Shown here: in pieces, positions 5,036 to 24,156 of the stretch
How positions within the stretch are numbered: position 1 is the stretch's first letter
How the letters are laid out: the number at the start of each line of letters is the position of its first letter
NCBI RefSeq assembly: GCF_014651595.1
Contig: NZ_BMXE01000002.1
Location: forward strand, 372,001 to 436,000
Source of the DNA: Pseudovibrio japonicus
GTDB taxonomy: Bacteria; Pseudomonadota; Alphaproteobacteria; Rhizobiales; Stappiaceae
Direction of reading: 5' to 3'
DNA: 64,000 bases
The notes under the pieces: generated by a model
What the model saw: the letters and a program-made list of their open reading frames with translations, nothing else
Database searches by the model: none
Told to the model about the DNA's origin: nothing
Program-made: the position numbers and the translations under genes

Positions 5036-5112
5036 GCACCCGTAGCTCAGTTGGATAGAGCGCTGCCCTCCGAAGGCAGAGGCCGCAGGTTCGAATCCTG
5101 CCGGGTGCACCA
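5036..5112 (+). tRNA. tRNA-Arg (anticodon CCG)
   Basis: A complete cloverleaf of 77 nt with encoded CCA. The acceptor arms GCACCCG and CGGGTGC pair perfectly. The anticodon stem CTGCC/GGCAG closes the loop CTCCGAA (anticodon CCG, reading CGG), and the T arm contains GGTTCGAATCC. This is the integration target of the adjacent element; its last 47 bases plus one more are duplicated at 24109-24156. The left copy is the functional gene because only it has the 5' half. Confidence 0.97.
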
Positions 5113-5291: not shown

Positions 5292-6392
5292 ATGAGCCTC
5301 ACTCACACTCACAACGGTTTGCCAGAAGGTTTTACGCGGGCACTCCTCCTCACTCTCATAGACAAGTTTGGCCCAGCAGCTGGCCTTAGTGCCACTGACA
5401 TCAAGGTTTTGAAATACTACGTATTGAAAGTACGTGACGAAGATTTTCTGAAGGGGCGTATCTGCGCTGTCTGGCAAAGAATTCCGTTAACCGCAGAGGA
5501 GCTCAACCTCAACGAGCGAGCAATCACTCGTGCTGAAAACAGACTCATTAAGGCTGGTTGGCTCCTTAAGACCAATGCATTGAGAAGCCGTCGCGACGGT
5601 TCACGCGAAAAAGCAGGTGACCAGCGCATCATCTGGGCGGCTGGAATAAACTGCCAACCTCTCATCGATCATAAAGTCCCAGCACTTGTTCGGCTAAGCA
5701 AGCAGCGCGAAGAGGCAAAACTTGAGCTTGAGGCACTCCAGTCGGAGACGAAGTATCTTTTCGCCGAAATCCGCTCCCTGAACTGCTCTGAAGCACTTGA
5801 ACGTGCCCTTGTCATTTTACCCTGTGGTCGCCTATCCCGTGTGCGAGCTCTAGAAAAACTCCGTCAGATCAAAACCAAGCTTTCTTCTCTTTTGTCGTTT
5901 TTCAGGAAACAGGCTGTTGAGAAGCCTGTTGAAGAACACAGTCGCGCACAGGCAAAAGCGCCGTCCGGGACGGACAAAACGTCCTCACGATCTAACACTA
6001 TTCAAAATCCACAAATCCAAAATAGTAGACCGAGCGCTGTGCGAATATCGCTTCGGCGATGCTTGGATCACGCACATCCTGACGTGCTTGAAAACATGAG
6101 TATCTTAGGTGGTTATTCGCAGGAGAACCTCATCAAAACAGCGAACCTGTTTAGGCAAGAGCTTTGCGTAAGTGATGAGCTTTGGAAGCAAGCCTGTCAC
6201 AAATTGAACCGCCTTACAGCAGCAACACTGATTTCAATCATCTACCGAAATCATCAGCTCCCCAGCGAGCACAAAGCTCATGCTCGGAACGGAGGTGCTT
6301 GCTTCAAAGAACTTGTCCGCAAAGCCATCTCTGAACCCGCAACGCTTTCCCGTTTCCTCTTCAAAAACTTCGAAAACATGGAGGCTTGGTGA
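5292..6392 (+). CDS. RepC-like plasmid replication initiator
   Basis: A 366 aa protein. The N-terminal winged-helix-like region includes AEELNLNERAITRAENRLIKAGW, followed by the RRDG...GIN-x-QPLI stretch that resembles the end of the RP-C domain. The C-terminus NGGACFKELVRKA...LSRFLF matches the conserved tail of RepC initiators (GGAYFRxM-type). The middle is charged and coiled. RepC initiates replication of alphaproteobacterial repABC-type replicons, but no repA or repB is present here, so partition is absent. The stop overlaps the next start (TGATG), coupling it to the mobilisation genes. The call rests on motif resemblance and has not been searched. Confidence 0.7.
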   Translation: MSLTHTHNGLPEGFTRALLLTLIDKFGPAAGLSATDIKVLKYYVLKVRDEDFLKGRICAVWQRIPLTAEELNLNERAITRAENRLIKAGWLLKTNALRSRRDGSREKAGDQRIIWAAGINCQPLIDHKVPALVRLSKQREEAKLELEALQSETKYLFAEIRSLNCSEALERALVILPCGRLSRVRALEKLRQIKTKLSSLLSFFRKQAVEKPVEEHSRAQAKAPSGTDKTSSRSNTIQNPQIQNSRPSAVRISLRRCLDHAHPDVLENMSILGGYSQENLIKTANLFRQELCVSDELWKQACHKLNRLTAATLISIIYRNHQLPSEHKAHARNGGACFKELVRKAISEPATLSRFLFKNFENMEAW

Positions 6393-6847
6393 TGAGTGAG
6401 TTAGCGAGAGCAAGGAGACCCTTGCGATACCGCAATGGACCTTGCGAGGGGTGGCAAGCCTCCCCTTCGAACCCCACCAAAGCTACCAAACGCCAACTCA
6501 CAGAGACGGTCGTTTTGCGCTGTACGGCAGAGGAAAAAGAAAAGCTGAAGCAGCAAGCTCTGGAAGCTGGACAGACCACCTCTTCTTTACTGAGAACAAC
6601 GCTTGGCCTCATCAAGCCAACCCGACGCCGTGTAGCGCCCAAGGCTGATCCTCGACTAGTTGTTGAGTTGAGCCGCATGGGGTCCAACCTCAACCAGATC
6701 GCCCGAGCGCTAAACACAGCCAGAGCTGCTGGAGAGGCATACCAGCTTGATGGCCTGCAGATCATCACAGTACTGACCACTATCGACCGTCAGCTTAGCG
6801 AGTTGCTGAAGCTCCACCAGCGCGGGGAGCTAAAAGATGCTTATTAA
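6392..6847 (+). CDS. MobC/MbeC-like relaxosome accessory protein
   Basis: 151 aa from the ATG overlapping the initiator stop; an in-frame TTG six bases upstream is less likely. The region LTETVVLRCTAEEKEKLKQQA looks like a ribbon-helix-helix DNA-binding start. The downstream SRMGSNLNQIARALN is the hallmark of the MobC family, which binds oriT and helps the relaxase melt or nick it. It overlaps the relaxase gene by 11 bases, as usual for mobC-mobA pairs. Confidence 0.85.
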   Translation: MSELARARRPLRYRNGPCEGWQASPSNPTKATKRQLTETVVLRCTAEEKEKLKQQALEAGQTTSSLLRTTLGLIKPTRRRVAPKADPRLVVELSRMGSNLNQIARALNTARAAGEAYQLDGLQIITVLTTIDRQLSELLKLHQRGELKDAY

Positions 6848-7916
6848 GCTCTTCAAGAACGGCCAAGGCGGCGGAGCAGCGCCCGTTGACTACCTCGTTG
6901 CGGATAAGGTGCTTGCCTATGACGAGAACAGAAACCTGCTGCGCAATGCATCCGGCGCGCCGCTTCTGAAAGAGCGCGATCCACTGCCTGAAGTTCTTGC
7001 GGGCAATCCAGAGCACACCAAACTTCTGATCGACAGCAGTCGCCACAAGTGGAGCTATCGGGCAGGCGTAATGAGCTTCGATACTACCGATAGCCCAAGC
7101 GAAGAACAGCAACAGAAGGTGATGGAGGCCTTCGAGCGGTTGGCCTTTGCGGGTTTGGAGCGTGACCAGTTCGATGTCTTATGGGTTCGCCACACCCATG
7201 AGGATCGCGTTGAACTGCATTTCTGCACACCTCGCCTAGAGCTTAGTACCGGGAATAGCTTGAACATCGCACCTCCGGGCTACATCAAGGCTATGGATGT
7301 TCTTCGAGACATGCTCAACAAAGAACATGGCTGGGCCGACCCGCAAGACCCATCTCGCGCTCGAGAAACCAAGCTCACAACTGAACGCAAAGACCGCGCC
7401 AGCAGCCGCGAAGAAATTCAGCATTGGCTAGAAGAACTGATTGTCGTCGGGTGCATCAAAAACCGCCCGGAGATGATTGAAAACCTGCAAGACGCTCGGC
7501 AGAACCAAGCCGTCTTGATGGCCTCAGCCTTAGTGAGCTTCGAGAGCGATATCAGAGCCATATTGAACGACGCGCAACATACAATCAGGAGAGATTTGGC
7601 CGCACAGCACAGATCCATCAGCAACGAGATAGAGCAAGAGCTGAAGGACTTAAGAGCGCGGCTGAAGTTGCATCACCACCTTCGTCGCTGGTCACCACTC
7701 CTACTCCTTTTAGCGGTCGTGGTTTCTCTGTTTCTAACACTCAGCCTAACCTGGCTTTGGGCCACCCAGTACCAGCAATGGCAACTCTCCAACAAGCTGG
7801 AGAGCATGTTTCAGGAGAACAGCAGTGGATACCTGCTGCTCAACCTGAAAACCGGCACTCTAGCCCGTTGCGAGCTAACCCCCGACCACATCACCTGCAA
7901 AGACATACTAAGGTAA
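6837..7916 (+). CDS. MOBP5 (ColE1 MbeA-type) relaxase with membrane-anchored C-terminus
   Basis: 359 aa. The N-terminus GGGAAPVDYL places a tyrosine at position 19, the same position as the catalytic tyrosine of ColE1 MbeA. The metal-binding motif appears as H119-x6-E126-x-H128 (RHTHEDRVELHF), which keeps the spacing of the MbeA HEN motif but has His for Asn. From about residue 235 the protein becomes a charged helix and then a strong membrane segment (LLLLLAVVVSLFLTLSLTWLW). This tail resembles MbeB/MobB proteins rather than a normal relaxase end. It nicks oriT and pilots the strand during mobilisation by a helper T4SS. oriT itself was not located. Confidence 0.85.
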   Translation: MLIKLFKNGQGGGAAPVDYLVADKVLAYDENRNLLRNASGAPLLKERDPLPEVLAGNPEHTKLLIDSSRHKWSYRAGVMSFDTTDSPSEEQQQKVMEAFERLAFAGLERDQFDVLWVRHTHEDRVELHFCTPRLELSTGNSLNIAPPGYIKAMDVLRDMLNKEHGWADPQDPSRARETKLTTERKDRASSREEIQHWLEELIVVGCIKNRPEMIENLQDARQNQAVLMASALVSFESDIRAILNDAQHTIRRDLAAQHRSISNEIEQELKDLRARLKLHHHLRRWSPLLLLLAVVVSLFLTLSLTWLWATQYQQWQLSNKLESMFQENSSGYLLLNLKTGTLARCELTPDHITCKDILR

Positions 7917-8262: not shown

Positions 8263-8775
8263 ATGCTGATTGATACCAACGCAATCACACTTAAGTTCCT
8301 CGATGAACTCATCTTCAACACTTCCGAAGAAGTCATTTCGGCTTTCTTCGAAGTGTCATCTACCGGAAGTTATTGCTGCTTCAAAAGTGGAGAAATTGAC
8401 TTCAGCATACCTTGTGAGGAAGCGATTCCAGTTTTCTTTCAAGAGTGGGCCAATGGTTGGCATTGTTACTCCCAGCAAGGTTGGGTGACTATCCTTAAAG
8501 TCGCGGTTCCGGCTCACGCTGGAGAAAATTCGGCGCATGAAGCCATTGACAGCTTCTGCACCCAAGCTTTTGCCTCAGACCCATTCTCAGCAGGCTATCA
8601 CTACGCAAGCCTTATCAGCCGAGAGCCGGTAGATGGCAAGTTTGGAGGCTTTATCTTCGTAAACCGGAAGAATGATGCAGATCCAAACGGAAAACAGGAG
8701 GACCAGATTGCATTCTCAGAACTTCGCCTCAAGCTAATGCTTCTGACTGCAATGGAAGCGCACGAGGTAATGTAA
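8263..8775 (+). CDS. Hypothetical protein, mob-operon distal
   Basis: 170 aa, with a good ribosome-binding site (AAGGAG) nine bases before the ATG. I do not recognise the family. The sequence is acidic and mixed alpha/beta, with several aromatic residues (EWANGWHCY, GWVTIL) and no signal peptide or membrane segment. It follows the mob genes in the same direction after a short gap and could be co-transcribed with them. Candidates include a small cytosolic accessory or an immunity-like protein; nothing in the sequence decides between these. Confidence 0.65.
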   Translation: MLIDTNAITLKFLDELIFNTSEEVISAFFEVSSTGSYCCFKSGEIDFSIPCEEAIPVFFQEWANGWHCYSQQGWVTILKVAVPAHAGENSAHEAIDSFCTQAFASDPFSAGYHYASLISREPVDGKFGGFIFVNRKNDADPNGKQEDQIAFSELRLKLMLLTAMEAHEVM

Positions 8776-8833
8776 CACTCTGAGTAGGATATGACATTTT
8801 CACCCCTTGCGCTCAAACGCATGGGGTGCTCTT

Positions 8834-9115
8834 TCAAAGGTCTCGATAGCCAATAGGTAGCAATATAGGTCCCCTCAAGCTAGGTAGCCCCGGTAGTCCT
8901 GGCAACCCTGGGAGCCCTGGCAAGCCCTTGAGCCCAAGAGGAGCCATAGTTTTTACCGCAATACGATCATCGCTAATTATTTCGGCCACATAAGAACCGT
9001 TCCAAACTTCATTGCCATCCAATCTTCCCAAGAATTTGCTATTTTTGTGGAACACGTTATTTCCAACGACAAACGCCACTCCTCGCCCACCTGAATTAAA
9101 CAGCCAACGCGCCAT
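8834..9115 (-). CDS. 4-fold beta flower protein with collagen-like Gly-Leu-Pro tail
   Basis: About 93 aa. The chosen start has a strong ribosome-binding site (GGAGGA eight bases upstream); an upstream in-frame ATG at 9163 lacks one. The N-terminal half (WLFNSGGRGVAFVVGNNVF, FLGRLDGNEVWNG) shows the short beta repeats I associate with the small '4-fold beta flower' family. The tail GLPGLPGLPGLPGLP and the ending YRDL also fit that family. It is oriented against the neighbouring genes. Its role is unknown. The family call is from memory. Confidence 0.6.
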   Translation of the reverse strand: MARWLFNSGGRGVAFVVGNNVFHKNSKFLGRLDGNEVWNGSYVAEIISDDRIAVKTMAPLGLKGLPGLPGLPGLPGLPSLRGPILLPIGYRDL

Positions 9116-9217
9116 AATCTCATCCTCCGTTGATAAGAGATCCAATATTTCTGCGAAAATCATTCGCTTTAATCTAAGGCTGATAATTGATGCTGAAATT
9201 CATAAAGTAAATATCAG

Positions 9218-9380
9218 CTCCCACTGTGGGAGAGTAATAAAGTATCATACTGACAAGCCCCCAAAATAGCGGAAGTCTGGCGATACAGCACGCACAGTAG
9301 AGATTAAAGTTGCATACTGACGGGTGTATAGGCCCATTCAACAACAGTTTTCTAAGTATTAAAGTATCATACCGAAGAAG
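9218..9380 (+). repeat. Iteron-like repeat cluster A (three copies)
   Basis: After a CTCCCAC-T-GTGGGAG palindrome (9218-9232) come three related units: TAATAAAGTATCATAC (9235-9250), GATTAAAGTTGCATAC (9302-9317) and TATTAAAGTATCATAC (9357-9372). Two are followed by TGAC and the third by CGAA. Start-to-start spacing is 67 and 55 bases, matched almost exactly by cluster B (66 and 56). This explains most of the 500 bp gene-free stretch before the PIN gene. Confidence 0.8.
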
Positions 9381-9617
9381 TGTAATCCCACCTTCATAAC
9401 TAGCTATCGCGTGCCAGAGCGACAGGCCGATTTGAGCCCATAGTGGACATTCAGATTGTCGATTCCGATGGCAGGAATGCGAACTTTTGAGACATTTTCT
9501 TGATGTTGCCTATAGGACAGGGGCGAGCGAACGCAAAAACTATTGGATGCTTTTAGCCACAGCCACCTCTTTGAGGAAATTGCTAGGAAAAGCAGTAAAT
9601 ATGATCTATTGCAACTT

Positions 9618-10721
9618 ATGAACGACAAACACCCACCTCAAGCAATCGGACTTGAAACTCGCCATATTTTCTTCGATACGCAAGTCTATCGCGGATATGG
9701 TCACGACCTTAGCGTTAAATCTCTTGAAGTTCTAGCAGGCTACATCGCTGAAGACATTCTTATTCTGCATACGACCGACATCACTCTGAGAGAAGTCAGC
9801 GCTCAACTGGATGCGATGCAATTAGAGCTTGTAACGAAGGCAAACCGGTCTGCCCGATTGCTCGACCGTTGGAATAGAAAGCTGCGTGACAAACGCAATT
9901 GGTTTACCGTCCCGGAAAAGCTGGACCCGCCAGCCTCACCCACAAATGCCTATCGAGACTTCGAAAGGACACTGCTCTACCGCTGGAATGTGAAGTGTCA
10001 TAAAGCAGCGGACCTTTCAATGGGGGCTGTACTCGACCAGTATTTTCTTCGCGAAGCACCATTTGACAAAGATGGGAGTAAGGAGTTTCCCGACGCTATG
10101 GCGCTTCTTGCCTTGGAGGCTTGGTGTCAGCAGGCAAGAGAGAAATGCTATGTGGTAAGCAAAGACCAAGCGGTTCAACGTGCGGCGGATAAATCCGAAC
10201 ATTTGATCCCCATTGATTCACTTGAAAAGCTGCTTTCGGTTCTAACCTCTGCTCAAGATCATGACATTGCCGACAAAGTCGGATATGCACTGCGCAATGC
10301 GCCTTTATCAGATAAACTTGAAGAGATACTTTCAACCAACATGATCCATTTTGGTGGTCTATACGATGGCGACAGGATGGATGGCGAGGTCGGGAATATC
10401 GAGTTCGCCGCATTGAACGAGATATCTTCAGTCACGGTGCTGCGTGTCGACAAAGACAAGGTTGCCTGCCTCCTCGGGATCAAAATGGACGTGACCGCCG
10501 AGATCTCTTTTTCCGATGAAACATACGCAAGTTGGGATAATGAAAGCGGTCGTTTTTTTGGGTTAGAGACTGAATATGACGATGTTGATGATACTGTACC
10601 CGTCAGAATTTTTATCGAACTCACCCGAGACGACGGCGAGTTTCTACTCGACGATTTTCAGTTCATCACTAGCGACTTGACCATAAGTGATTACAACTCT
10701 GATGGGTACCCATACAAGTAA
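9618..10721 (+). CDS. PIN-domain protein (DUF4935-like), possible RNase
   Basis: 367 aa from ATG 9618; an in-frame TTG 25 codons upstream is less likely. The PIN fold acidic residues appear in order: FFDTQVYRG, TTDITLREV, EFPDAMALLAL and VVSKDQAVQ. That is the Asp-Glu-Asp-Asp set that binds metal in PIN ribonucleases. The last 170 residues are rich in beta strand and acidic residues and are not recognised. There is no antitoxin-sized partner immediately beside it. The gene sits between two near-identical repeat clusters (A and B) and could be a defence or plasmid-maintenance nuclease. Nuclease activity is inferred from the motif. Confidence 0.7.
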   Translation: MNDKHPPQAIGLETRHIFFDTQVYRGYGHDLSVKSLEVLAGYIAEDILILHTTDITLREVSAQLDAMQLELVTKANRSARLLDRWNRKLRDKRNWFTVPEKLDPPASPTNAYRDFERTLLYRWNVKCHKAADLSMGAVLDQYFLREAPFDKDGSKEFPDAMALLALEAWCQQAREKCYVVSKDQAVQRAADKSEHLIPIDSLEKLLSVLTSAQDHDIADKVGYALRNAPLSDKLEEILSTNMIHFGGLYDGDRMDGEVGNIEFAALNEISSVTVLRVDKDKVACLLGIKMDVTAEISFSDETYASWDNESGRFFGLETEYDDVDDTVPVRIFIELTRDDGEFLLDDFQFITSDLTISDYNSDGYPYK

Positions 10722-10831: not shown

Positions 10832-10990
10832 GTGGGAGAGTAATAAACTTTCATACCGACAAGCGCCCCAAGCAGTACAAATCAGCCGATATGAGATGCC
10901 TACGAATAAATAAAGTTACATACTTGCCGCTGCACATCCACTCTCAACATCAGCTTTTTGAGTGTTAAAGATTCATACCGAAGAGCCCAT
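10832..10990 (+). repeat. Iteron-like repeat cluster B (three copies)
   Basis: GTGGGAGAG is followed by TAATAAACTTTCATAC (10841-10856), AAATAAAGTTACATAC (10907-10922) and TGTTAAAGATTCATAC (10963-10978). The first is followed by CGACAAGCGCCCC and the last by CGAAGAG, as in cluster A. The layout (66 and 56 bp spacing) mirrors cluster A on the other side of the PIN gene. Confidence 0.8.
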
Positions 10991-12777: not shown

Positions 12778-13593
12778 GGCTCTGTTGCATCTGTTGAGTG
12801 AAGACACAAATAACCTTCCCCAGGCGCAATTTAAGCGTGAATTCCAAACAGGCGGTTGATAAAGAAAACCTCGGTCCCACCTCCGACAGATCTGATCCAG
12901 CCGTCAAACTGCCCCTTCTTAAACATTCGCATTACCTCAAAGCCCTTAATGGTTGCAGTCGCTGTTCGCATCGACTGGAAGCCGAGCGTTGGTTTAATCA
13001 GCCGCTTGAGCTTGCCATGGTCGCTCTCCAGCCGGTTATTTAGATATTTAACTTGCCGCAACTGAACGAATTCTGGCACCTTTCCTTCGGACTTAAGTTC
13101 AGCCAAGGCCAGACCATAGGCAGGATTCTTGTCAGTGTTGATCCTTGAGGGAACATAATGCTTTGATCGCCTCAAGGCTTTGGCAAGAAAGCGCTTTGCC
13201 GCCTTGCTGTCGCGTTTGGCTGTAAGCAGAAAATCAATCGTATCACCACGCTTATCGATGGCCCGAAACAGATATTTCCATTGACCCTTAACCTTCACAT
13301 ATGTTTCGTCGACACGCCAAGAGAACGACAGCCGATTTTGATACCACAAGGTCCGCTTTTCTAGTTCCGGGGCGTAGTGCTGAACCCATCTGTAGAGGGT
13401 GGTGTGGTCAACATCAACGCCGCGCTCCTTCAGCATTTCCTCAAGATCGCGTTAGCTGATGCCATATTTACAATACCACCTCACAGCCCAAAGAATGATC
13501 TCCCCTGAAACTGGCGATACTTGAATTCTGACATTGCAAATCCCCCACACCGTAGGGATCATGCAGGCAAGGCCTCAAACTTGCAACAAAGCC
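12778..13593 (-). mobile_element. IS6-family insertion sequence, decayed (816 bp)
   Basis: The terminal sequences GGCTCTGTTGCA (from 12778) and GGCTTTGTTGCAA (read on the minus strand from 13593) form imperfect inverted repeats of IS6/IS26 type. The 816 bp length is normal for the family. The eight bases flanking each end do not match, so there is no target duplication. The transposase inside is broken, so the copy should be immobile on its own. Confidence 0.85.
12831..13534 (-). pseudogene. IS6-family transposase, frameshift and nonsense mutation
   Basis: The 201 aa intact portion (from 13436) includes the DDE catalytic region: WRVDETYVKVKG (first Asp), the INTDKNPAYG Asp and the LNNRLESDHG Glu. 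Upstream codons still encode EIILWAVRWYCKYGIS, but the next codon is TAA (13452-13454) where the family has Tyr, followed by RDLEEML. Further upstream the start MSEFKYRQFQ is in a different frame, so a one-base indel lies near 13500-13506. Two independent lesions show that it is dead. Confidence 0.9.
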
Positions 13594-14810: not shown

Positions 14811-16079
14811 ATGAAACAAGATCCAATAGTCGTAACGGGAATGGGGTTAGTGACACCGCTTGGCTGCGGTGTAATGGAAGTGTGGGAGAGATTACTTGCT
14901 GGGAAGTCAGGCGTCCGGCAGATCGAACGGTTCACTGTAGATGACTTACAAACAACCATTGCTGGCTTGGTTCCGTCCTCGCTTGAAGATGACTGCGGTC
15001 TGGACCCTGACCGCGTTATCAGTAAAAAAGACCGTAAAAAGATAGATCTCTTTACCCTTTATGCTTTAGCTGCAGCGGAAGAAGCTCTCTCGCAAGCAGG
15101 TTGGCGACCTGAAACCCAAGAGCAACTGGACCGCACGGCCACCATCATTGGTACCGGGATCGGTGGTTTTCCAGTAGTGACGGCGGCTTTGCATACCCTT
15201 GATACAAAAGGCCCTCGTCGAATTTCTCCTTTCGTAGTTCCGCAATTTCTTGGAAATCTGGCGGCAGGCAATGTCTCAATAAAATACGGATTTCGCGGAC
15301 CAATTGGTGCTCCGGTTACAGCCTGCGCTGCTGGACTACAGGGTATCGGGGACGGTATGCGGATCATTTCGAGCGGTGAAGCTGATGTCGCGGTTGTCGG
15401 AGGTACCGAGGCGTGCATCGACCGTTTAGCACTAGCTGGGTTTAATGCTGCCAGAGCGCTTTCTACAGACAATGACAACCCACAAACTGCCTCACGCCCC
15501 TATGATAAGTCCCGGTCGGGTTTTGTCCTTTCCGAGGGTGCCGGATTGCTGGTGATTGAGAAGATGTCTCACGCAATTAACCGCGGTGCCACGCCCCTTG
15601 TCATCCTTGAAGGTTATGGAACAAGTGCAGACGCATATCATTTAACGGCAGGTCCGGAGGATGGTGCTGGGGCTGCTTTGGCAATCCGCCGAGCTCTTAC
15701 GGGGGCAGAGTGTGACACTGAGGAAATCGGTTACATCAATGGACACGCAACCTCAACCTCTGTTGGGGACGCTGGCGAAATTGCAGCGTTACGAAGCGTA
15801 TTTTCTGAAACATTGCCTAAGGTGCCGATTTCTTCAACCAAATCTGCCACCGGACATTTATTAGGTGCAGCAGGAAGTGTTGAAGTCATTTTTACCTCGC
15901 TTGCGACCATTACCGGATCTCTCCCTGCCACACTTAACTTCCGCCAAGGAGATCTGGACACCAAGGATCTGGATTTCATACCCGATCTGGGCAGAAAGAA
16001 ATCCATAGAAAGGGCTCTTTGTAACGCTTTTGGGTTCGGGGGTGTAAACGCTTGTTTGGTTATAAAATCAGTTAACTAA
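14811..16079 (+). CDS. fabF: Beta-ketoacyl-ACP synthase II (FabF paralogue)
   Basis: 422 aa, full length for FabF. The thiolase-fold active site is complete: Cys172 in VTACAAGLQGIG, His in INGHATST, and the Lys/His region SSTKSATGHLLGAAG. It condenses acyl-ACP with malonyl-ACP in fatty acid elongation. No ACP, FabG or other fatty-acid gene is adjacent, so this is probably an accessory copy carried by the element rather than the housekeeping gene. Possible roles are temperature-dependent or altered membrane acyl chains (inference). The PAP2 phosphatase that follows could relate to lipids too. Confidence 0.92.
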   Translation: MKQDPIVVTGMGLVTPLGCGVMEVWERLLAGKSGVRQIERFTVDDLQTTIAGLVPSSLEDDCGLDPDRVISKKDRKKIDLFTLYALAAAEEALSQAGWRPETQEQLDRTATIIGTGIGGFPVVTAALHTLDTKGPRRISPFVVPQFLGNLAAGNVSIKYGFRGPIGAPVTACAAGLQGIGDGMRIISSGEADVAVVGGTEACIDRLALAGFNAARALSTDNDNPQTASRPYDKSRSGFVLSEGAGLLVIEKMSHAINRGATPLVILEGYGTSADAYHLTAGPEDGAGAALAIRRALTGAECDTEEIGYINGHATSTSVGDAGEIAALRSVFSETLPKVPISSTKSATGHLLGAAGSVEVIFTSLATITGSLPATLNFRQGDLDTKDLDFIPDLGRKKSIERALCNAFGFGGVNACLVIKSVN

Positions 16080-16407: not shown

Positions 16408-16605
16408 ACTTTTCGTGTTCCTAGGTAAATTTTTTTTAACATAAATTACCGCTTCCAGTTTCGCTCTTGAGACAAGACTGTCTGAGGCGGAACGGCGGGC
16501 TCTTTAAAAAGTAACTATTCAGGGCTCGCGCCTGACGTGTGCCGGTAGAAAAGTGTGTTGCGCGTTCGATCAGATTTTGCAGCAGCGCCAGAGTATGAGT
16601 TATAT

Positions 16606-17460
16606 ATGTCAGATCAAGATTTAAGACATTTGAAGCAAAATAACGTCAAAACAGATGCTGTAGTTGAAGATACTTCAGCGTTTTCCCTACAAGTATTCAA
16701 ACAAAATTTGCAGAATACACGGAATATTCTCGATAAACGCACTGTAAACGTAGAAAAGCGCAAGCGCCCGATCAATACACTCACGTTACCTCAGAACCTT
16801 GCGTCTTTTGCGGTGGTTCTAATCGGTCTATGCCTATTGTTCTTGGACAAAGGAACTTATCATTGGGTGAAAGATCTCCCGCCGCAGCTTGGGCCATTAT
16901 TTCGAATGCTTTCTAATATGGGCGAATCCTGGTGGATGCTCATTCCATCTTTTGTTTTGATTATCGTGCTACTTTCCTGCAACGTAAAAAAACATGATAG
17001 AAGAAGAAAAACTCAACAATTAGCGTTCGTTATATACTCTTCCTATATTTTCTCTACTGTTGCCATTAGTGGAATACTGGTCGTAATTTTGAAATGGAAT
17101 ATAGGTCGAGCAAGACCCAAACTATTCGAAGATGTGGGAGCTTTTTACTTTGATTTATTTGCGTGGTCGGGGAAATACACCAGCTTTCCAAGTGGTCATG
17201 CAACCTCTGCAGCAGCTTTTTCTACGGCTCTTGCTTTTTTATTCCCCCGGCAGAAGTTTCCTATAATTATATTCGGCCTATGGGTTGCTTTTGGCAGAGT
17301 ATTTGTGGGAGCGCATTATCCTAGTGATGTGATTGCTGGATTTGCACTAGGTTCTATCGTATGCATTCTTATCACTCGCTGGTTTGCAAATCGAAAGATT
17401 GGTTTTTCATATAGTCGGCCAAAAAGCATCCAGCGCACCTTATCTTTTAGCGGCAAGTAA
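16606..17460 (+). CDS. PAP2-family membrane phosphatase
   Basis: About 284 aa from ATG 16606; a GTG 17 codons upstream is possible. All three phosphatase motifs are present in order: KWNIGRARP, SFPSGHATS and GRVFVGAHYPSD (K-x6-RP, PSGH, R-x5-H-x3-D). Several hydrophobic helices mark an integral membrane protein. The first 70 residues are hydrophilic and cytoplasmic. The family dephosphorylates lipid phosphates such as phosphatidate or undecaprenyl pyrophosphate; the substrate here is unknown. Codon use looks AT-richer than the core genome, in keeping with acquisition. Confidence 0.88.
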   Translation: MSDQDLRHLKQNNVKTDAVVEDTSAFSLQVFKQNLQNTRNILDKRTVNVEKRKRPINTLTLPQNLASFAVVLIGLCLLFLDKGTYHWVKDLPPQLGPLFRMLSNMGESWWMLIPSFVLIIVLLSCNVKKHDRRRKTQQLAFVIYSSYIFSTVAISGILVVILKWNIGRARPKLFEDVGAFYFDLFAWSGKYTSFPSGHATSAAAFSTALAFLFPRQKFPIIIFGLWVAFGRVFVGAHYPSDVIAGFALGSIVCILITRWFANRKIGFSYSRPKSIQRTLSFSGK

Positions 17461-17962
17461 TTCTTGCCCCTAAGGGCCCTGATGGAATGGATGCCCCGCC
17501 CCGTAAATAGTTACCTCGGGAAAATGAACGCAACTCAAAATCGATTTGTTAGTATAGGTAGAAATGGACGTAGGTTTGGATGCCCTGGTAATCCCCCCGA
17601 TAATTGATCGAGTTTAAAAGTAGAGATATTGTTGCGTCATATTGAGGACTGATTTTATGAAGAAATCTCGTTTCAGCGATGCACAACACTTTACCTAAGC
17701 TGTACTCAACCTGAGAGGGAACTGCCCGAAGGTCGGCTGATGGCCCTCCGCGTCAGCAATGGCTTGATGTTGACCTAGATTTCTGCACAGCAGCGAATGA
17801 CCGATAAGACCGCAAATCAGCTGTTCAAGCGCACTAACCTGAAAGTTAGCTTTGGGGTCAAGGGGCGTCTATCCAGTATGAAACTCTATTCCTCAGTATG
17901 CATCTTTATTACTGAGTATGAGACTTTATTACTCTCCCACGCGACAACCACTATGTTGCATT
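17461..17962. other. Gene-free stretch with IS3-like start remnant
   Basis: About 500 bp. At 17657 a short frame reads MKKSRFSDAQ before hitting a stop, which resembles the start of IS3-family OrfA proteins and may be a leftover. Repeat cluster C lies at 17876-17940. Nothing else is recognised. Confidence 0.4.
17876..17940 (-). repeat. Iteron-like repeat cluster C (three compact copies)
   Basis: Read on the minus strand: GTGGGAGAG, then TAATAAAGTCTCATAC (17931-17916), TAATAAAGATGCATAC (17911-17896) and GAATAGAGTTTCATAC (17891-17876), spaced exactly 20 bp, followed by a GCCCC as in cluster B. Same consensus and same GTGGGAGAG leader as A and B, but packed two helical turns apart. It lies just beyond the 3' end of the 632 aa gene. 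Confidence 0.8.
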
Positions 17963-19861
17963 TTACTGATAAGAATATTCCGCAAGTAATTGCATTTTTT
18001 TAACCCATTGCGGATTCAAAGAACCTCGATCAATACGTATGTTTTGAATTATTAAATAATGACGGGCCAGCTCCTGTAACGAGCTCCCCCAATGAGAAAC
18101 CGCGTCTTCAATCATTTTCTGGTCAATACCGTGATTTTGCATCGCAAAGACCATTTGAAAGAAGGTGTTGTGAGGCCAAGCGTACGGTCGCAAAAACTCG
18201 GTAAGGAACTCCAGATCTTCTTCAGATGATCCGGTCAAGACATCCTTCATTGATTTGCAGAGGCGAACCAAGGCGGCAGACCAGAAGTCCCGACGGAAAG
18301 AGTAAGCCTCTGTTTGCATCGCATCTTCCAACATTTCTTGCGATATGCACCATATAACTTTCTTACGTTCTCCCTCTGTAAACTCCAACGCATTAAGTGC
18401 CCATAAGACGACTAACTCTGCAACTCCGTTAGGTGTCTCATCCAAGTCGCGGTTCCAAGCCTGCTCTCTGTATCGGCGTACTTTACTCCAGAGATCTTCG
18501 ATAACGGCTTCCGCATCCTTTATTTTTAGGAGGTACTGGGCACCAATGCTCCCCGCAACATCCCCTTTTTGCTCAATGCGATCCACTGAAGCGCTAAAAG
18601 AAGGACGTACCTTAATGAGTAAGTCTTGTAGAAGCTTCACTCGTTCTTCGGTGTTTAAGGTCTTGTTTTCCGTGGCCACCGATAGCACTGCTAGTAAACG
18701 GTTCACCCTCCAAAGGTCACCCGCTTCTTTGATCCAAGGAACCGTTAGTTCACGCAGATCTATTTTTTTTGATAGCTCGTTTATCAAGAGTGCTAACGGA
18801 TCAATGAACATTCCTTGCCCGTGAGAGCGAAAGCTCCACATTCCGCGTGACTTGCCTTCAAAAATAAGGCGCTCCAGCCAAAGCCACCCAATAGCTTGTG
18901 CATCTTCACGGGTAAAAAACGCTTCTAAAAGCAAATGAATGTAATGCCTCAGTTTTTCAAGATCATCATCAAGCTTACTGATTTCTTCTTCGGTGACTGG
19001 CTGTGTGACGCTCTCCTTCCCCCACGCCATGTAGCGGCATTGCTCTGAGGCTGAATTGAGCAATGAAAGCACAACTGTTCCTTCTTTCAGAAACGTACCG
19101 TTTTTGCCAAAAGCCGTCGGCGCATCCCTGAGTAAGTGCAATGCACCCAATCCCAACTTTTTATCGATGCACTGTTGAACCAAAACCGGGTGCGGCAGTC
19201 GACTTAGATACTCAATGTATTTCGCTGGGTTAATTTGTGAAGCTAGAACAAAGAGGTAAGCACGATCGAGTATAACGCAACTTTCTAATCTGCTTTCCCA
19301 AACTTCACCAATATCTGGTTCGATCAGAAAGTCATTTATTCCTTGCTCAAGTGCACCTTTTCGATAAGAGGCCGCTGATTTAAGGGGATGGGTTACAATA
19401 TGATCGAGTTGCTTCCACAAACCATTTTGAGCTGCAGGATCTGACCTTAATCGCTTCCCTAGTTGCTCGAAAAAGGCCTCCCACGCTCCGAAGCTATGAA
19501 AATCCCAGAACTGTAGAGTGCCGATCTCTCTATTACTTAGCGCATCAGCGAATATCTCAGCTCTTGCCAAGCCGACCAACCTTGCTAAAGGCCAGCGGCC
19601 AGCAAGTATTGGTCCCTCTTGCAGCTCAAGGATTTCTAAGGCTTCGCCCACATCACTGAGACCAATTTGCCCACACTTGCCCTTCAGAAGGATGGTCTCA
19701 GGTAGTTGGGATATATCACTATCGCTTTGTACTTCGAGTTTATCGAGCGCTATGATCCAATCTTTGAACGAAGCAATTAGCTCATCAAGGTCATTTCGTT
19801 GTTCGAGCAACTCGGTTGATTTTGCAACTTCAATCGCCTTCTTCTCCTCCCAAGCTAACAT
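17963..19861 (-). CDS. Unknown 632 aa protein, second gene of candidate defence module
   Basis: Not recognised. It is a large soluble, Leu/Glu-rich and apparently all-helical protein without signal peptide, membrane segment or nucleotide-binding motif. It contains repeated W and L pairs (GWLWLERLIFEG, WALNALEFTEGERKKVIW) consistent with a helical-repeat scaffold. Its ATG lies two bases after the stop of the PLD-like gene, so the two are translated as a pair. A helical-repeat sensor or scaffold working with a nuclease-like partner would fit, but this is inference from layout only. Confidence 0.8.
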   Translation of the reverse strand: MLAWEEKKAIEVAKSTELLEQRNDLDELIASFKDWIIALDKLEVQSDSDISQLPETILLKGKCGQIGLSDVGEALEILELQEGPILAGRWPLARLVGLARAEIFADALSNREIGTLQFWDFHSFGAWEAFFEQLGKRLRSDPAAQNGLWKQLDHIVTHPLKSAASYRKGALEQGINDFLIEPDIGEVWESRLESCVILDRAYLFVLASQINPAKYIEYLSRLPHPVLVQQCIDKKLGLGALHLLRDAPTAFGKNGTFLKEGTVVLSLLNSASEQCRYMAWGKESVTQPVTEEEISKLDDDLEKLRHYIHLLLEAFFTREDAQAIGWLWLERLIFEGKSRGMWSFRSHGQGMFIDPLALLINELSKKIDLRELTVPWIKEAGDLWRVNRLLAVLSVATENKTLNTEERVKLLQDLLIKVRPSFSASVDRIEQKGDVAGSIGAQYLLKIKDAEAVIEDLWSKVRRYREQAWNRDLDETPNGVAELVVLWALNALEFTEGERKKVIWCISQEMLEDAMQTEAYSFRRDFWSAALVRLCKSMKDVLTGSSEEDLEFLTEFLRPYAWPHNTFFQMVFAMQNHGIDQKMIEDAVSHWGSSLQELARHYLIIQNIRIDRGSLNPQWVKKMQLLAEYSYQ

Positions 19862-19863
19862 TT

Positions 19864-21498
19864 CTAAGTCTTCCTTGCGTTGAGAGAAAGTTCAGCAAGG
19901 TCGGTTGATTGCAACCATACCTTACCAATCATACTTCGAATAGAAACCGGTTCTGGTAGTTTCGTCATCACACCAAGCCGCTCACCAAGCTCGTTAAAAC
20001 TTGGACCGCAATGCCAAACATCTTCATCAACAACAAGATATCGATCATGAATGAGAGTTTTTTCTCCTCCTGGCATTACTCGGACGGTTGGTGCTCTTCC
20101 TTCAAGTTTATTTCTGATATCTTCCAGATCTGAAGCGAAAATAATGCCCTGCTGCAGCTGAAACCCCTGTCCTTCTCCAGACAACGATTTAAGAGCTGGT
20201 AAGCCGGTCAAAATTCGTGGAACTAAGCCATCACTCTGATTTTGAAGTGCGAACAAGCGCATCTCACGAACACCAAAAAAGGGGTCAACAAAAATGAGGC
20301 GTCGTCTTGCTTCTTTAATTAAGCCTACAACGAAATCCTGCGCTTCTTTCTTCTTTCTATTGCGTTCAACTTCACCTAAGCTCTCTTTGGCGGTTCCAAA
20401 AATCTTTTGGGGCGCAGACTTCCTTCGATCACGCTTCTTACGTTGGGAAACGAGCGACTGAAGCCTCAAGCGCCCAGGAGCTTCCGGTAACACACCAATA
20501 GTTGAAGTGTCTCCTGATGAATAACGGCTCTGCTGGTAACTCTGTGCAGGCTTACGCTTTCCGCCGGACGGTACCTCAATCTCCAATGAACCAACGCTAC
20601 TTTGCAAACCAAAACTGATTTGGTTCAACCAAGATGCTGGCTTGGAAGCTTGCAGCAAGCCTCTTTCAGAACAGACTAAAGCCCAACCAATCTTATCGGT
20701 AAGCTGAGGATATTGCAGCTCGGTAAAGCCCTCCTTTGCAAGCGAAGTACTTTGTATGCTTGCCCAACCATTCCCTCTTTCTTCGATAACATGCAGAGTA
20801 AGTGTGCTTAGGTCGGATACTTTGTGCCGAGTTCGTCGTGGTACAGCTAGGCAGGATAGTGACTCGGTACCATTCTCTGGCCTTGCACATGGTGAGATTT
20901 GAAGTGATGCGAGAATAGGATCAGGCGCTAGCATCGCTAGGCCACCTAACCACTCAATCTCCTCAAAAGGATCAAAACCAAGATTCTCTTGCAACCAATG
21001 CCGAGCTGAATCATTTCCTGTAAGTTTGAGAACCTGCCGTTGAGGACGGGTCATTGGAACTAGTTGATTTATTCTTGGGGAGTCATGCCAAGGAAAAGCA
21101 AATGGCGCTTCCATGCCTACTGCAAACTTACCTAAGTTGGGTTCAGCGGCCATTGCAGCAGCAGTTGTAGGTATCTCACCCTTCGGGGTAATGATATTGA
21201 CGCTTCCACGGGCTGCGCGCCTGTACCAATCAGTAGCAACTTCACTTGAGACACGCGTAGTCGAAAACGTTAAGGTCCATCCATCTGTACCGGGCACAGC
21301 CCAAGGTTTTGCTCCGGCTGTCCAACCTTCAGGTACAATCATGTCAAAGGGAAACAACTCAACCCAACCAAACAAATGAAATTGCTTCTTATCCGCTCTT
21401 AATATCGCATGACGTACTAGCGCGTTAGGATAGTCATTCTGAAGCTGGCAAAGTGAAGCTTCCTGAATCTCGCTATCAAGATCTGCTATATAATCCAT
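19864..21498 (-). CDS. PLD-like (single HxR-D half-site) protein, first gene of candidate defence module
   Basis: 544 aa from ATG 21498, preceded by GGGTGG; an in-frame TTG eight codons upstream is less likely. The C-terminal third has FVDPFFG near residue 404 and H484-x-R486-x4-D491 followed by G498-x-S500-x-N502. This is a phospholipase D-type HKD half-site with Arg for Lys, as in several defence-associated nucleases. The first 330 residues form a domain I do not firmly recognise; it may be the family labelled VPA1262 in databases (from memory, unsure). A basic linker (KKRDRRKSAPQK) separates the parts. It is paired with the 632 aa gene; nuclease or lipase action is inferred. Confidence 0.75.
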   Translation of the reverse strand: MDYIADLDSEIQEASLCQLQNDYPNALVRHAILRADKKQFHLFGWVELFPFDMIVPEGWTAGAKPWAVPGTDGWTLTFSTTRVSSEVATDWYRRAARGSVNIITPKGEIPTTAAAMAAEPNLGKFAVGMEAPFAFPWHDSPRINQLVPMTRPQRQVLKLTGNDSARHWLQENLGFDPFEEIEWLGGLAMLAPDPILASLQISPCARPENGTESLSCLAVPRRTRHKVSDLSTLTLHVIEERGNGWASIQSTSLAKEGFTELQYPQLTDKIGWALVCSERGLLQASKPASWLNQISFGLQSSVGSLEIEVPSGGKRKPAQSYQQSRYSSGDTSTIGVLPEAPGRLRLQSLVSQRKKRDRRKSAPQKIFGTAKESLGEVERNRKKKEAQDFVVGLIKEARRRLIFVDPFFGVREMRLFALQNQSDGLVPRILTGLPALKSLSGEGQGFQLQQGIIFASDLEDIRNKLEGRAPTVRVMPGGEKTLIHDRYLVVDEDVWHCGPSFNELGERLGVMTKLPEPVSIRSMIGKVWLQSTDLAELSLNARKT

Positions 21499-21607: not shown

Positions 21608-22486
21608 TTACCCTATAAGATCTCGTTCTTGTCGAAGCTCATCATTGTTTTCTAAATAGTTATATACTCGTTCGGTAAGAGCTTGATATCCATCCCAATA
21701 CTCGTCTTCGACTTTGCGCTTTTGGATCATTTCTAGATCCCACCAGTCATCCAGCCAATAAGAACGACGAGCTTCCTTCAAAGCGATAAGAGGGTGCACT
21801 TCCCCGAAAATCAAAGAACGGAATGCCTTCTCTGGCATTAGATAGCCATATGGGGCGATATTCCCTTTATTGCTCCATACACGCCGACAAGTGTTTGAGA
21901 ATTCTGCTTGGTGCCATTCTCCCGTTGTACCAACCACATCACTCAAATGGAGCGTTGTGTTGAAGGTCTCACATCGATGTGTGTCTAATCTCTTGATGAT
22001 TGCCACTGAACCTTCGCGCGAAGTATCGCGAACAAAATGCAGCTCAGAGCAATCCTCCGATGATAGCTCTTGAAATAACGAAGCGCCGTATTCTTGTGCT
22101 AGGCGTACGTGGAATGGGTTTCCGATATCGTGCTTCAGCCAATCCGCTCGAGCATTACAGTAGTTTGCGATTTTGTCTAAGAGCTTGAAAGGCGGCTCCT
22201 CAGCTCCAGATAGTATTCGCTGAACACGAGACGGCGCATCTTCTTCGATGCCTTCTGCCAAAATTGAGACGGAGAATTTATCCGCACCCAACACGCTCTG
22301 AAGTTGCTTCATTAACCATTGCAAGCGCCCCAAAGACCCCGAGAAAAAAGAGGTCTCTAGACGACTAATAATCTCAGCATTTATGGATTTATTACTTGAT
22401 TTTGCACTAATCGCGATCCGCTCGTGCAGGTCTGGCGGCATGCGTAACATGAAGCCTTTGGGGGAGTTTGTAGTGTCCTTTGCCAT
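21608..22486 (-). CDS. RHH/HTH transcriptional repressor-like protein
   Basis: 292 aa. The N-terminus (GFMLRMPPDLHERIAISAKSSNKS...INAEIISRLE) is an Arc/MetJ-type ribbon-helix-helix. It is followed by a segment (FSVSILAEGIEEDAPSRVQRILSGAEEPPFKLLDKIANYC) reminiscent of a lambda-repressor-type HTH, and a C-terminal half of unknown fold. It is transcribed divergently from a second small RHH gene across a palindromic operator, as in phage or element immunity regions. It probably represses the integrase/excisionase side and perhaps the downstream two-gene module. The domain fusion is unusual. Confidence 0.7.
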   Translation of the reverse strand: MAKDTTNSPKGFMLRMPPDLHERIAISAKSSNKSINAEIISRLETSFFSGSLGRLQWLMKQLQSVLGADKFSVSILAEGIEEDAPSRVQRILSGAEEPPFKLLDKIANYCNARADWLKHDIGNPFHVRLAQEYGASLFQELSSEDCSELHFVRDTSREGSVAIIKRLDTHRCETFNTTLHLSDVVGTTGEWHQAEFSNTCRRVWSNKGNIAPYGYLMPEKAFRSLIFGEVHPLIALKEARRSYWLDDWWDLEMIQKRKVEDEYWDGYQALTERVYNYLENNDELRQERDLIG

Positions 22487-22493
22487 AAAGGGA

Positions 22494-22569
22494 CAGTAAT
22501 GATGTTCAACAGATTTCTCAATGATGTCACTATAGTTTCATTGACACTATGATGACATCAACCTAGCAT
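22494..22569. promoter_or_regulatory. Divergent promoter/operator region of the element switch
   Basis: Arms TGATGTCACTATAGT (22522-22536) and ACTATGATGACATCA (22546-22560) form a near-perfect palindrome. It overlaps a good plus-strand sigma70-like promoter: TTGACA (22541-22546), 17 bases, TAGCAT (22564-22569). On the minus strand TTGAGA, 17 bases, TACTGT could drive the repressor gene. Binding here would control both directions. Confidence 0.65.
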
Positions 22570-22596: not shown

Positions 22597-22800
22597 ATGC
22601 CTAAGCGAGATTGGCCACGCATCTTAATTAGAATTCCACCTGACACTAAGAATTTTCTCATCGGTCAGGCAGAACGAAATGCATCAAGTTTGAATAGTGA
22701 AATTGTCCGGTGCATTCGCCAGCGCATGGACGAGCTAAGCCGTACTGAAGACAACACGTCATTGTGTACAGGCACAGGCGAGAGGATTAGCACAACATGA
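22597..22800 (+). CDS. Small Arc-type RHH regulator
   Basis: 67 aa. It reads RILIRIPPDTKNFLIGQAERN...SLNSEIVRCIRQRM, the Arc-family ribbon-helix-helix pattern. It is first in a plus-strand operon with the excisionase-like gene and integrase. Its stop overlaps the next start (ATGA). By analogy with phage switches it may act as the Cro- or excision-side regulator that binds the same operator as the divergent repressor. Confidence 0.75.
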   Translation: MPKRDWPRILIRIPPDTKNFLIGQAERNASSLNSEIVRCIRQRMDELSRTEDNTSLCTGTGERISTT

Positions 22801-23123
22801 TAGTGAGTTCGCTATTGCCTAAGGCAATCACTGAAGCAAAGACTATTCCTGAGTGGGTTTCAATCTTTGCAGAAAAAGGGGTCCAAATATCACCGCGACA
22901 GCTCTCCACGAGAGCACGGAAGCTCGGCGCATTTTACCAATGTACCCGACCAATGCTTTTGCACCCAGATCATATTGAAACTATTCTAACGGAAGGGAAT
23001 GCATGCCAATCGAACTCTACAAGCGGGGTAATACTTGGTGGTTCAAAGGCCGCATCGAAGAACTACCTGAAGGAGAATACTATCGACAAAGCACTGGAAA
23101 AACTAAGAAGAAAGACGCGCTGA
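22797..23123 (+). CDS. Excisionase/HTH-like small protein overlapping integrase
   Basis: 108 aa. The start overlaps the previous stop by four bases, and its last 121 bases overlap the start of the integrase in another frame. The N-terminal 65 residues (TIPEWVSIFAEKGVQISPRQLSTRARKLGAFYQ) look like a small winged-helix or HTH of excisionase type, ending HPDHIETIL. The remaining C-terminal part is compositionally plain. Position immediately before int supports a directionality-factor role; no diagnostic motif was found. Confidence 0.55.
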   Translation: MIVSSLLPKAITEAKTIPEWVSIFAEKGVQISPRQLSTRARKLGAFYQCTRPMLLHPDHIETILTEGNACQSNSTSGVILGGSKAASKNYLKENTIDKALEKLRRKTR

Positions 23124-24094
23124 CATACATAGCTCACTTCCATCAGAACGAAATACGTAAGTACTATACAGGGGAGGATGAAGTATTTCTCTTCGCAGAT
23201 GCTATACTTCTTTATGATCCAACCGATGATTATAAAAAATACCTTGAGAAGGTGTTCCCTTATATTGGTCACCTTGAGGTTTCAAAAATCACACCGAAGT
23301 TGGTGAAAGATTTAGGGCCACAAATTTCTCCAGAAAACTCTACTGATACATGGTCAAAGCAAATAATTGGCCCTGTTCGTGCAGTAATAAATAATGCCCA
23401 TCAGCTCGGAAAATGCGGAGCAATTTCAATCAAAAATTATTCCAGTATTGAGCGTGTCAGACAAGATAAAGCGCGGGGCAAAAATACTAGAGTGAAAAAA
23501 ATTCCAGGGGACTGGAATTGGATACTCGCATTTAAGAAACATGCCAGTCCGCATATGGGTATCCTATGCCAGTTTATGTTCGAGACCGGATCAAGGCTGG
23601 GACAAGCCCTAGCAATGATCCCTAGTGATTTAGACCTCGAGAATCGGTTGGTTAAGATCCCCGCAGCGAAAGGCTTCGACGAGCGCACTAAGGAAATATC
23701 CGAAGATCTGACAAAAGAACTGAGAGATCTGCCTCCACGAAGGCCGCGTGCTACCGGAAAGAAGGGGCAGCATAGGCCCCTATTAGTTTTCGGCTACGCT
23801 AGCAGATACAGCGTCAACAAAACCTGGGATCGCGTTTGTGAACGCGCAGGCATCGATATTCGCAAACCACATGCTGCGGGGCGTCATGGCTTCGCCACAG
23901 AAACCGCTGTTAGGCAGGGGGTTGACCCAGTATCAGCAGCAGAGTCCGGTGGATGGGCAGATAAAGCTAACTTTATAAAAGTTTATCTCCATGCTGAAGA
24001 CAGTGAGGCCAAAACAGTCGAGGCTATGCGTACAGGGCGCGTACAGGCAGAACAACAGAATCAAGTTAACACATTGGAAAATAAGGATGATTAA
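23003..24094 (+). CDS. Tyrosine recombinase (element integrase)
   Basis: 363 aa with ribosome-binding site GGAAGGGA before ATG 23003. Catalytic residues are in order: Arg198 in ETGSRLGQAL, His290 and Arg294 in HAAGRHGFAT (one residue wider than the usual HxxR), Trp318 in GGWADK and nucleophile Tyr328 in FIKVYLH. The N-terminal 110 residues hold the arm-binding and core-binding regions. It ends 14 bases before attR, so it must recombine the 48 bp tRNA-Arg repeats. Integration and excision of the 19 kb element are the expected job. Confidence 0.93.
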   Translation: MPIELYKRGNTWWFKGRIEELPEGEYYRQSTGKTKKKDALTYIAHFHQNEIRKYYTGEDEVFLFADAILLYDPTDDYKKYLEKVFPYIGHLEVSKITPKLVKDLGPQISPENSTDTWSKQIIGPVRAVINNAHQLGKCGAISIKNYSSIERVRQDKARGKNTRVKKIPGDWNWILAFKKHASPHMGILCQFMFETGSRLGQALAMIPSDLDLENRLVKIPAAKGFDERTKEISEDLTKELRDLPPRRPRATGKKGQHRPLLVFGYASRYSVNKTWDRVCERAGIDIRKPHAAGRHGFATETAVRQGVDPVSAAESGGWADKANFIKVYLHAEDSEAKTVEAMRTGRVQAEQQNQVNTLENKDD

Positions 24095-24108: not shown

Positions 24109-24156
24109 CCCTCCGAAGGCAGAGGCCGCAGGTTCGAATCCTGCCGGGTGCACCAT
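24109..24156 (+). repeat. attR: second copy of the 48 bp tRNA-Arg 3' segment
   Basis: Identical to 5066-5113. The 5' half of the tRNA is absent here, so this is not a gene. It marks the right end of the element. Confidence 0.95.

Follow-up and report, generated by a model that had tools for sequence, protein, structure and literature searches.

What is the function of two adjacent genes that occupy positions 17963-21498, on the minus strand, of a 64,000-nucleotide (nt) stretch of the Pseudovibrio japonicus contig NZ_BMXE01000002.1 (the whole stretch being called here the window)? The upstream gene, A, encodes a protein with a phospholipase D (PLD) fold and the downstream one, C, a large helical protein. 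We consider it fairly probable that they form an accessory operon directed against phages (or against mobile elements), with A as the effector and C as its control. The pair is laid out as follows:

19864..21498, minus strand: gene A, 544 amino acids (aa), VPA1262-family protein
19862..19880, minus strand: A/C junction, with a 2-nt gap; the 3' end of A contains a Shine-Dalgarno-like AAGGAAG immediately ahead of the C start codon (ATG)
17963..19861, minus strand: gene C, 632 aa, all-helical, probable alpha-solenoid partner

Both open reading frames (ORFs) are intact and, since two uninterrupted ORFs of this length have conserved relatives elsewhere, the pair is not a chance feature. An in-frame TTG 24 nt upstream offers an alternative start for A, yielding 552 aa. 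The 2-nt gap and the AAGGAAG motif within the end of A make translational coupling from A to C plausible, as had been claimed in a preliminary description of this locus, which had also placed the ORFs, with their lengths, and the motifs FVDPFFG, HxR-x4-D and GxSxN where we find them.

A matched the NCBIfam family NF040700 (VPA1262_N_dom) with 135.1 bits (cut-off 80), over A residues 75-524 and profile positions 2-472 of 478, and is the only NF040700 protein in the host genome. The family name carries no function; VPA1262 itself, named in only two of the papers searched, belongs to a genomic island of Vibrio parahaemolyticus, according to an excerpt of PMC1464126. No Pfam family matched A at an E-value of 1, and one homologue (L039; we number loci with L and genomes with G) narrowly clears PF13091. 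The predicted structure of A comprises an N-terminal beta-rich region, a central beta-sandwich (~186-288) and a C-terminal domain (~354-542) with the PLD-superfamily fold. The motifs found there are FVDPFFG (403-409), H484-D485-R486-Y-L-V-V-D491 (HxR-x4-D) and G498-x-S500-x-N502, so that A carries one HxR-x4-D half-site, with Arg replacing the Lys of the classic PLD motif HxK-x4-D. The HDR triplet is kept in 20/20 A proteins, and the Asp in 12/12 of the window's clade vs 0/8 of the divergent relatives.

C had no match in Pfam, NCBIfam or PADLOC at an E-value of 1, and its matches in PHROGs were weak (best E-value 0.054). Its structure model is all-helical (mean predicted local distance difference test score 66.5), in line with the helical nature first attributed to it, and C is a probable alpha-solenoid on the basis of this model. 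The pair had been described as matching no named defence system; C belongs to no curated family, whereas A has a named, albeit function-less, one. Family searches of both proteins gave no housekeeping or metabolic match; the preliminary description had listed such a match as contrary to its interpretation, as it had the possibility that the two genes never co-occur elsewhere.

They do co-occur. We collected relatives of A from one genome-contig scan (L002, Paraburkholderia), seven plasmid records, genome samples and viral contigs. With E-values up to 0.001, A matched 14/398 genomes of a phylum sample (5 over the cut-off), 5/397 of an order sample (3 over) and 8/100 in another set (4 over), the first two samples each including the window's own genome; three other genomes of the same genus, among those listed, lacked A. 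A homologue of C lies 3' of A, or of A and a middle gene, at all 12 loci with a full-length A match, namely the window and its 11 close relatives (L002, L017, L018, L019, L020, L021, L022, L025, L026, L039 and L040); the enterobacterial and P2-like C proteins were recognised as homologues of the window's C by profile comparison. Intergenic gaps range from -8 to +62 nt (nine loci measured), except for 199 nt in L019. Searching with C matched 3/398 phylum-sample and 1/397 order-sample genomes, and the matched genomes (G000, G053 = L026 and G279 = L025) are rows of the C query itself; no C away from A was seen in these two samples, which is all that this search shows. Distances among the A proteins are correlated with those among the C proteins (r 0.97 across 12 loci, with 0/5000 permutations as high; r 0.83 over 9 non-redundant loci, 1/10000 permutations), as also expected from plain joint inheritance, and pairwise identities over the 9 loci are 12-25% for C vs 19-44% for A, so that C diverges faster. 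A and C are inherited together.

The term 'two-gene system' fits the window and four relatives, but not the other 7/11 relatives, in which a third, small gene separates A from C. This middle gene, B, of ~160-250 aa, is present in 7/12 loci (L019, L021, L022, L025, L026, L039 and L040). It resembles the PLD part of A in six of the seven, with weak similarity in L021 and L026, and HDR and Asp are both kept in 6/7 of its proteins. In L019 (Azospirillum) the middle gene (8545-9227) is short, has no HDR and precedes the 199-nt gap to C; it is probably degenerate. In the trees of both A and C, the loci lacking B (the window, L002, L017, L018 and L020) split from those with B (supports 0.996 and 0.956), and this shared split suggests a single loss or gain of B.

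Does A then act on nucleic acid at all? The PLD domain might instead be dead, or act on phospholipid or another phosphodiester, A and C together serving the element that carries them as a regulatory or structural complex. The replacement of HxK by HxR and the lack of the Asp in all eight divergent relatives are compatible with this, as are the structural neighbours of A, which include lipid enzymes together with FAM83 and TrmB-type proteins that we take to be non-catalytic. The universal retention of HDR in A, the invariant Asp in the window's clade and the presence of both in nearly all B proteins argue the other way, and we regard a non-nuclease role as distinctly unlikely.

The surroundings of the relatives point to defence. 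In L039/L042, A-C lies between the portal gene (PF04860) and the gpA gene (PF05840) of a P2-like prophage; the gpA-gpQ interval of such prophages is a hotspot of anti-phage systems in the excerpted text of Rousset et al. 2022 (PMC9122126). L025 has LmuA and LmuB (Lamassu) upstream and GajA and GajB (Gabija) downstream. L017/L074 has a DSR2 gene downstream and, ~9 kb upstream, a set of adenylate-cyclase, E2-domain and TIR genes that is presumably Pycsar-like. Multiubiquitin and ThiF genes lie near L018/L075, an 'abortive infection family protein' ~7 kb from L019/L076, and AbiEi and AbiEii ~3 kb from the divergent relative L052. A reverse transcriptase, which could belong to an intron, adjoins L043. 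The Rhizobium tumorigenes relative (L077, 14484-26792) adjoins a DUF4236 protein, His-Xaa-Ser radical-SAM (hxs) genes and a YhhA/YhhB cyclophane-peptide cluster. An accessory, mobile location in a defence hotspot or next to defence genes is found, in a comparison made without an enrichment control, for some relatives (P2 gpQ-gpA, Lamassu/Gabija, DSR2 and AbiE). Since relatives adjoin known anti-phage genes, the pair is probably an immune system, and their genomic context supports the earlier idea that it is anti-phage cargo.

Several observations weigh against this interpretation. We scanned 55 chosen neighbours, drawn from ten window-clade loci, without matched control genes; among the matches listed (25 of 156 families), known defence neighbours were traced at 2/10 loci (L025 and L017), and the large neighbours of L018, L019 and L022, scanned singly, gave no match. 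When five window proteins were scanned with PADLOC (2023 library), A alone matched. A had no match in 50,697 phage records, and the covariation of A and C would also follow from joint inheritance. Catalysis by A is not certain, because Arg stands in place of Lys and the Asp is confined to the window's clade; its best structural match is BJ-TSA-9 (4urj), and FAM83 ranks alongside nucleases. The models of A and C are both of modest confidence, and the solenoid assignment of C holds at class level only. Finally, we found no experiment in the literature on any family member.

In the window, the pair is part of a 19-kb island bounded by a tRNA-Arg gene and a 47-bp copy of its 3' end:

5036-5112: tRNA-Arg(ccg), found with ARAGORN
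5066..5112, plus strand: left attachment site in tRNA-Arg(ccg) (direct repeat D1)
5292..6392, plus strand: RepC-like protein at the left island end (PF03428, 29.5 bits, cut-off 24.4; PF11800, 31 bits, just under the cut-off of 32.6)
6386..7916, plus strand: NikA/MobC-like protein (6386-6847) and MobA/VirD2-type relaxase (6837-7916) (PF21983, E-value 2.2e-13; PF05713; PF03432, E-value 1.2e-6)
9227-9241 (plus strand), 10833-10847 (plus strand) and 17925-17939 (minus strand): three exact copies of TGGGAGAGTAATAAA, from a repeat search
21608..22486, minus strand: island regulator, Arc/HicB-type ribbon-helix-helix plus a repressor-like region (PF03869, PF05534; PHROGs transcription regulators)
22597..22800, plus strand: 67-aa protein, Arc-like by eye from its translation, divergent from the regulator
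23003..24094, plus strand: tyrosine integrase (PF00589, E-value 1.7e-13; phrog_1, E-value 1.4e-25)
24109..24155, plus strand: right attachment site, duplicating the 3' end of tRNA-Arg (D1; 47-bp exact match)

This gene content identifies the island as a mobilisable integrative element. The preliminary description had located the pair beside the regulatory switch of a mobile element, at the element's edge, and the tRNA-Arg repeats, the integrase and the regulator adjoining the pair bear this out; the predicted switch consists of the regulator and the 67-aa protein. The regulator gene shares the strand of A and lies 109 nt upstream of it. Promoter-like matches occur between the regulator and the 67-aa gene (22524-22569), a region no richer in them than its shuffles, and none was found in the 109-nt gap. 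Given the shared direction, the short gap and the lack of a promoter-like match there, A and C may be co-transcribed with the regulator.

The nearest flanking genes of the pair encode this regulator and a PAP2 protein. The latter, a PAP2-family phosphatase (16555-17460), and a beta-ketoacyl synthase (14811-16079) represent lipid-related cargo near the pair. The island also contains an IS6/IS240-type transposase (12831-13436, PF13610) and a gene for a 392-aa protein with a PIN_12 domain (9543-10721, E-value 3.7e-16), possibly another cargo module. This gene is flanked by two longer repeat blocks, each holding one copy of TGGGAGAGTAATAAA, and the third copy is just downstream of C. With up to 2 mismatches, 0.09 copies of this sequence would be expected, and the genome has four exact ones; they may be the ends of an insertion element. 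In the same-genus genome G808, further copies of the tRNA-Arg 3' end lie at C86:385199-385244 and 397167-397211, at most 24 kb from that genome's own tRNA site; these two probably mark one or two other islands. These extra copies make the tRNA-Arg site look like a recurrent insertion point.

Members of the family occur in alpha-, beta- and gammaproteobacteria, carried by islands, by a prophage and by plasmids (the seven records, of which five were typed as conjugative). Such mobility, together with the tight coupling of A and C, would suit an addiction module resembling toxin-antitoxin pairs, in which C neutralises a toxic PLD nuclease A and the main role is the stability of the island or plasmid, phage protection being secondary. 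However, C is larger and diverges faster than A, unlike the small antitoxins that we take to be typical, the second PLD subunit found in 6/11 relatives fits poorly, and the placement in the P2 hotspot and beside Lamassu and Gabija favours defence; such a module appears unlikely to us. The presence of these genes on plasmids and on a mobilisable element, and a PLD fold compatible with DNA cleavage, would likewise agree with an operon that destroys incoming foreign DNA during competition between elements, acting against plasmids or conjugation and not on phage DNA. We find this improbable, one relative being located in the cos-proximal defence hotspot of a P2-like prophage, a place known for anti-phage genes.

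Under the anti-phage reading, A would be a phosphodiesterase, with nucleic acid as its most likely substrate and its single half-site completed by dimerisation. In the two-gene branch of the window, two A subunits would pair; in the three-gene branch, A would pair with B, which would supply the second HDR half-site of a composite active site. C may serve as a solenoid sensor or scaffold that binds A and, until a phage component has been detected, either holds it inactive or recruits it. Activation would lead to degradation of invading or total nucleic acid, that is, to direct interference or abortive infection.

The wider VPA1262 family shows other arrangements. In the divergent relatives L027, L036, L037 and L052-L055, a large ORF (479-725 aa) follows A, in L024 A is fused to a large partner (1103 aa), and L038 has a partial A with no large ORF after it. 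No homology of these partners to the window's C was detectable, and either strong divergence or replacement could account for this. L052 and L053, from two genomes of one genus, have similar divergent units of A and its partner in similar surroundings, including a very large gene that, near the L053 unit, matches PDC-M68A; this unit is a recurrent island. More tentatively, we propose that A-(B)-C is a distinct class of PLD immune complex, in which a solenoid sensor controls a nuclease made of two half-sites (A-A or A-B), and that the wider family repeatedly swapped its large partner. If the anti-phage reading is true, a function-less NCBI family stands at the centre of a multi-gene anti-phage system in three proteobacterial classes, the contrast between branches with one PLD subunit and with two provides a clear test of the way in which PLD nucleases with a single half-site are activated, and C becomes a new candidate phage sensor.

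How does the pair compare with known systems? The PLD region of A (residues 369-527) matches PADLOC PDC-S05, a candidate single-gene system, with 41.8 and 38.3 bits. However, its members L030 and L032 are ~300-aa proteins combining ORF6N and PLD (386-433 bits), whereas A has no ORF6N match and possesses a large beta-rich N-terminus and a partner; with the match limited to its PLD end, we rejected A as a PDC-S05 member. The PLD endonucleases Nuc and NucT (PDB 1byr and 6ehi) share 12-15% identity with A, which differs from them by its HxR in place of HxK, its N-terminal beta domains and its operon partner. DISARM (DrmC) and Mokosh (MkoB) are multi-gene defence units in which a PLD-type protein accompanies helicases and other subunits. 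Neither A nor C matches their PADLOC models at an E-value of 1, so that both assignments were rejected; weak MkoB similarity was seen only in the PDC-S05 member L030. We found no description of the VPA1262 family as a defence system in the literature that we searched. A-C is apparently a conserved, uncharacterised anti-phage operon and, since defence systems with PLD proteins are known already, its novelty hinges on the proposed composite, solenoid-controlled design.
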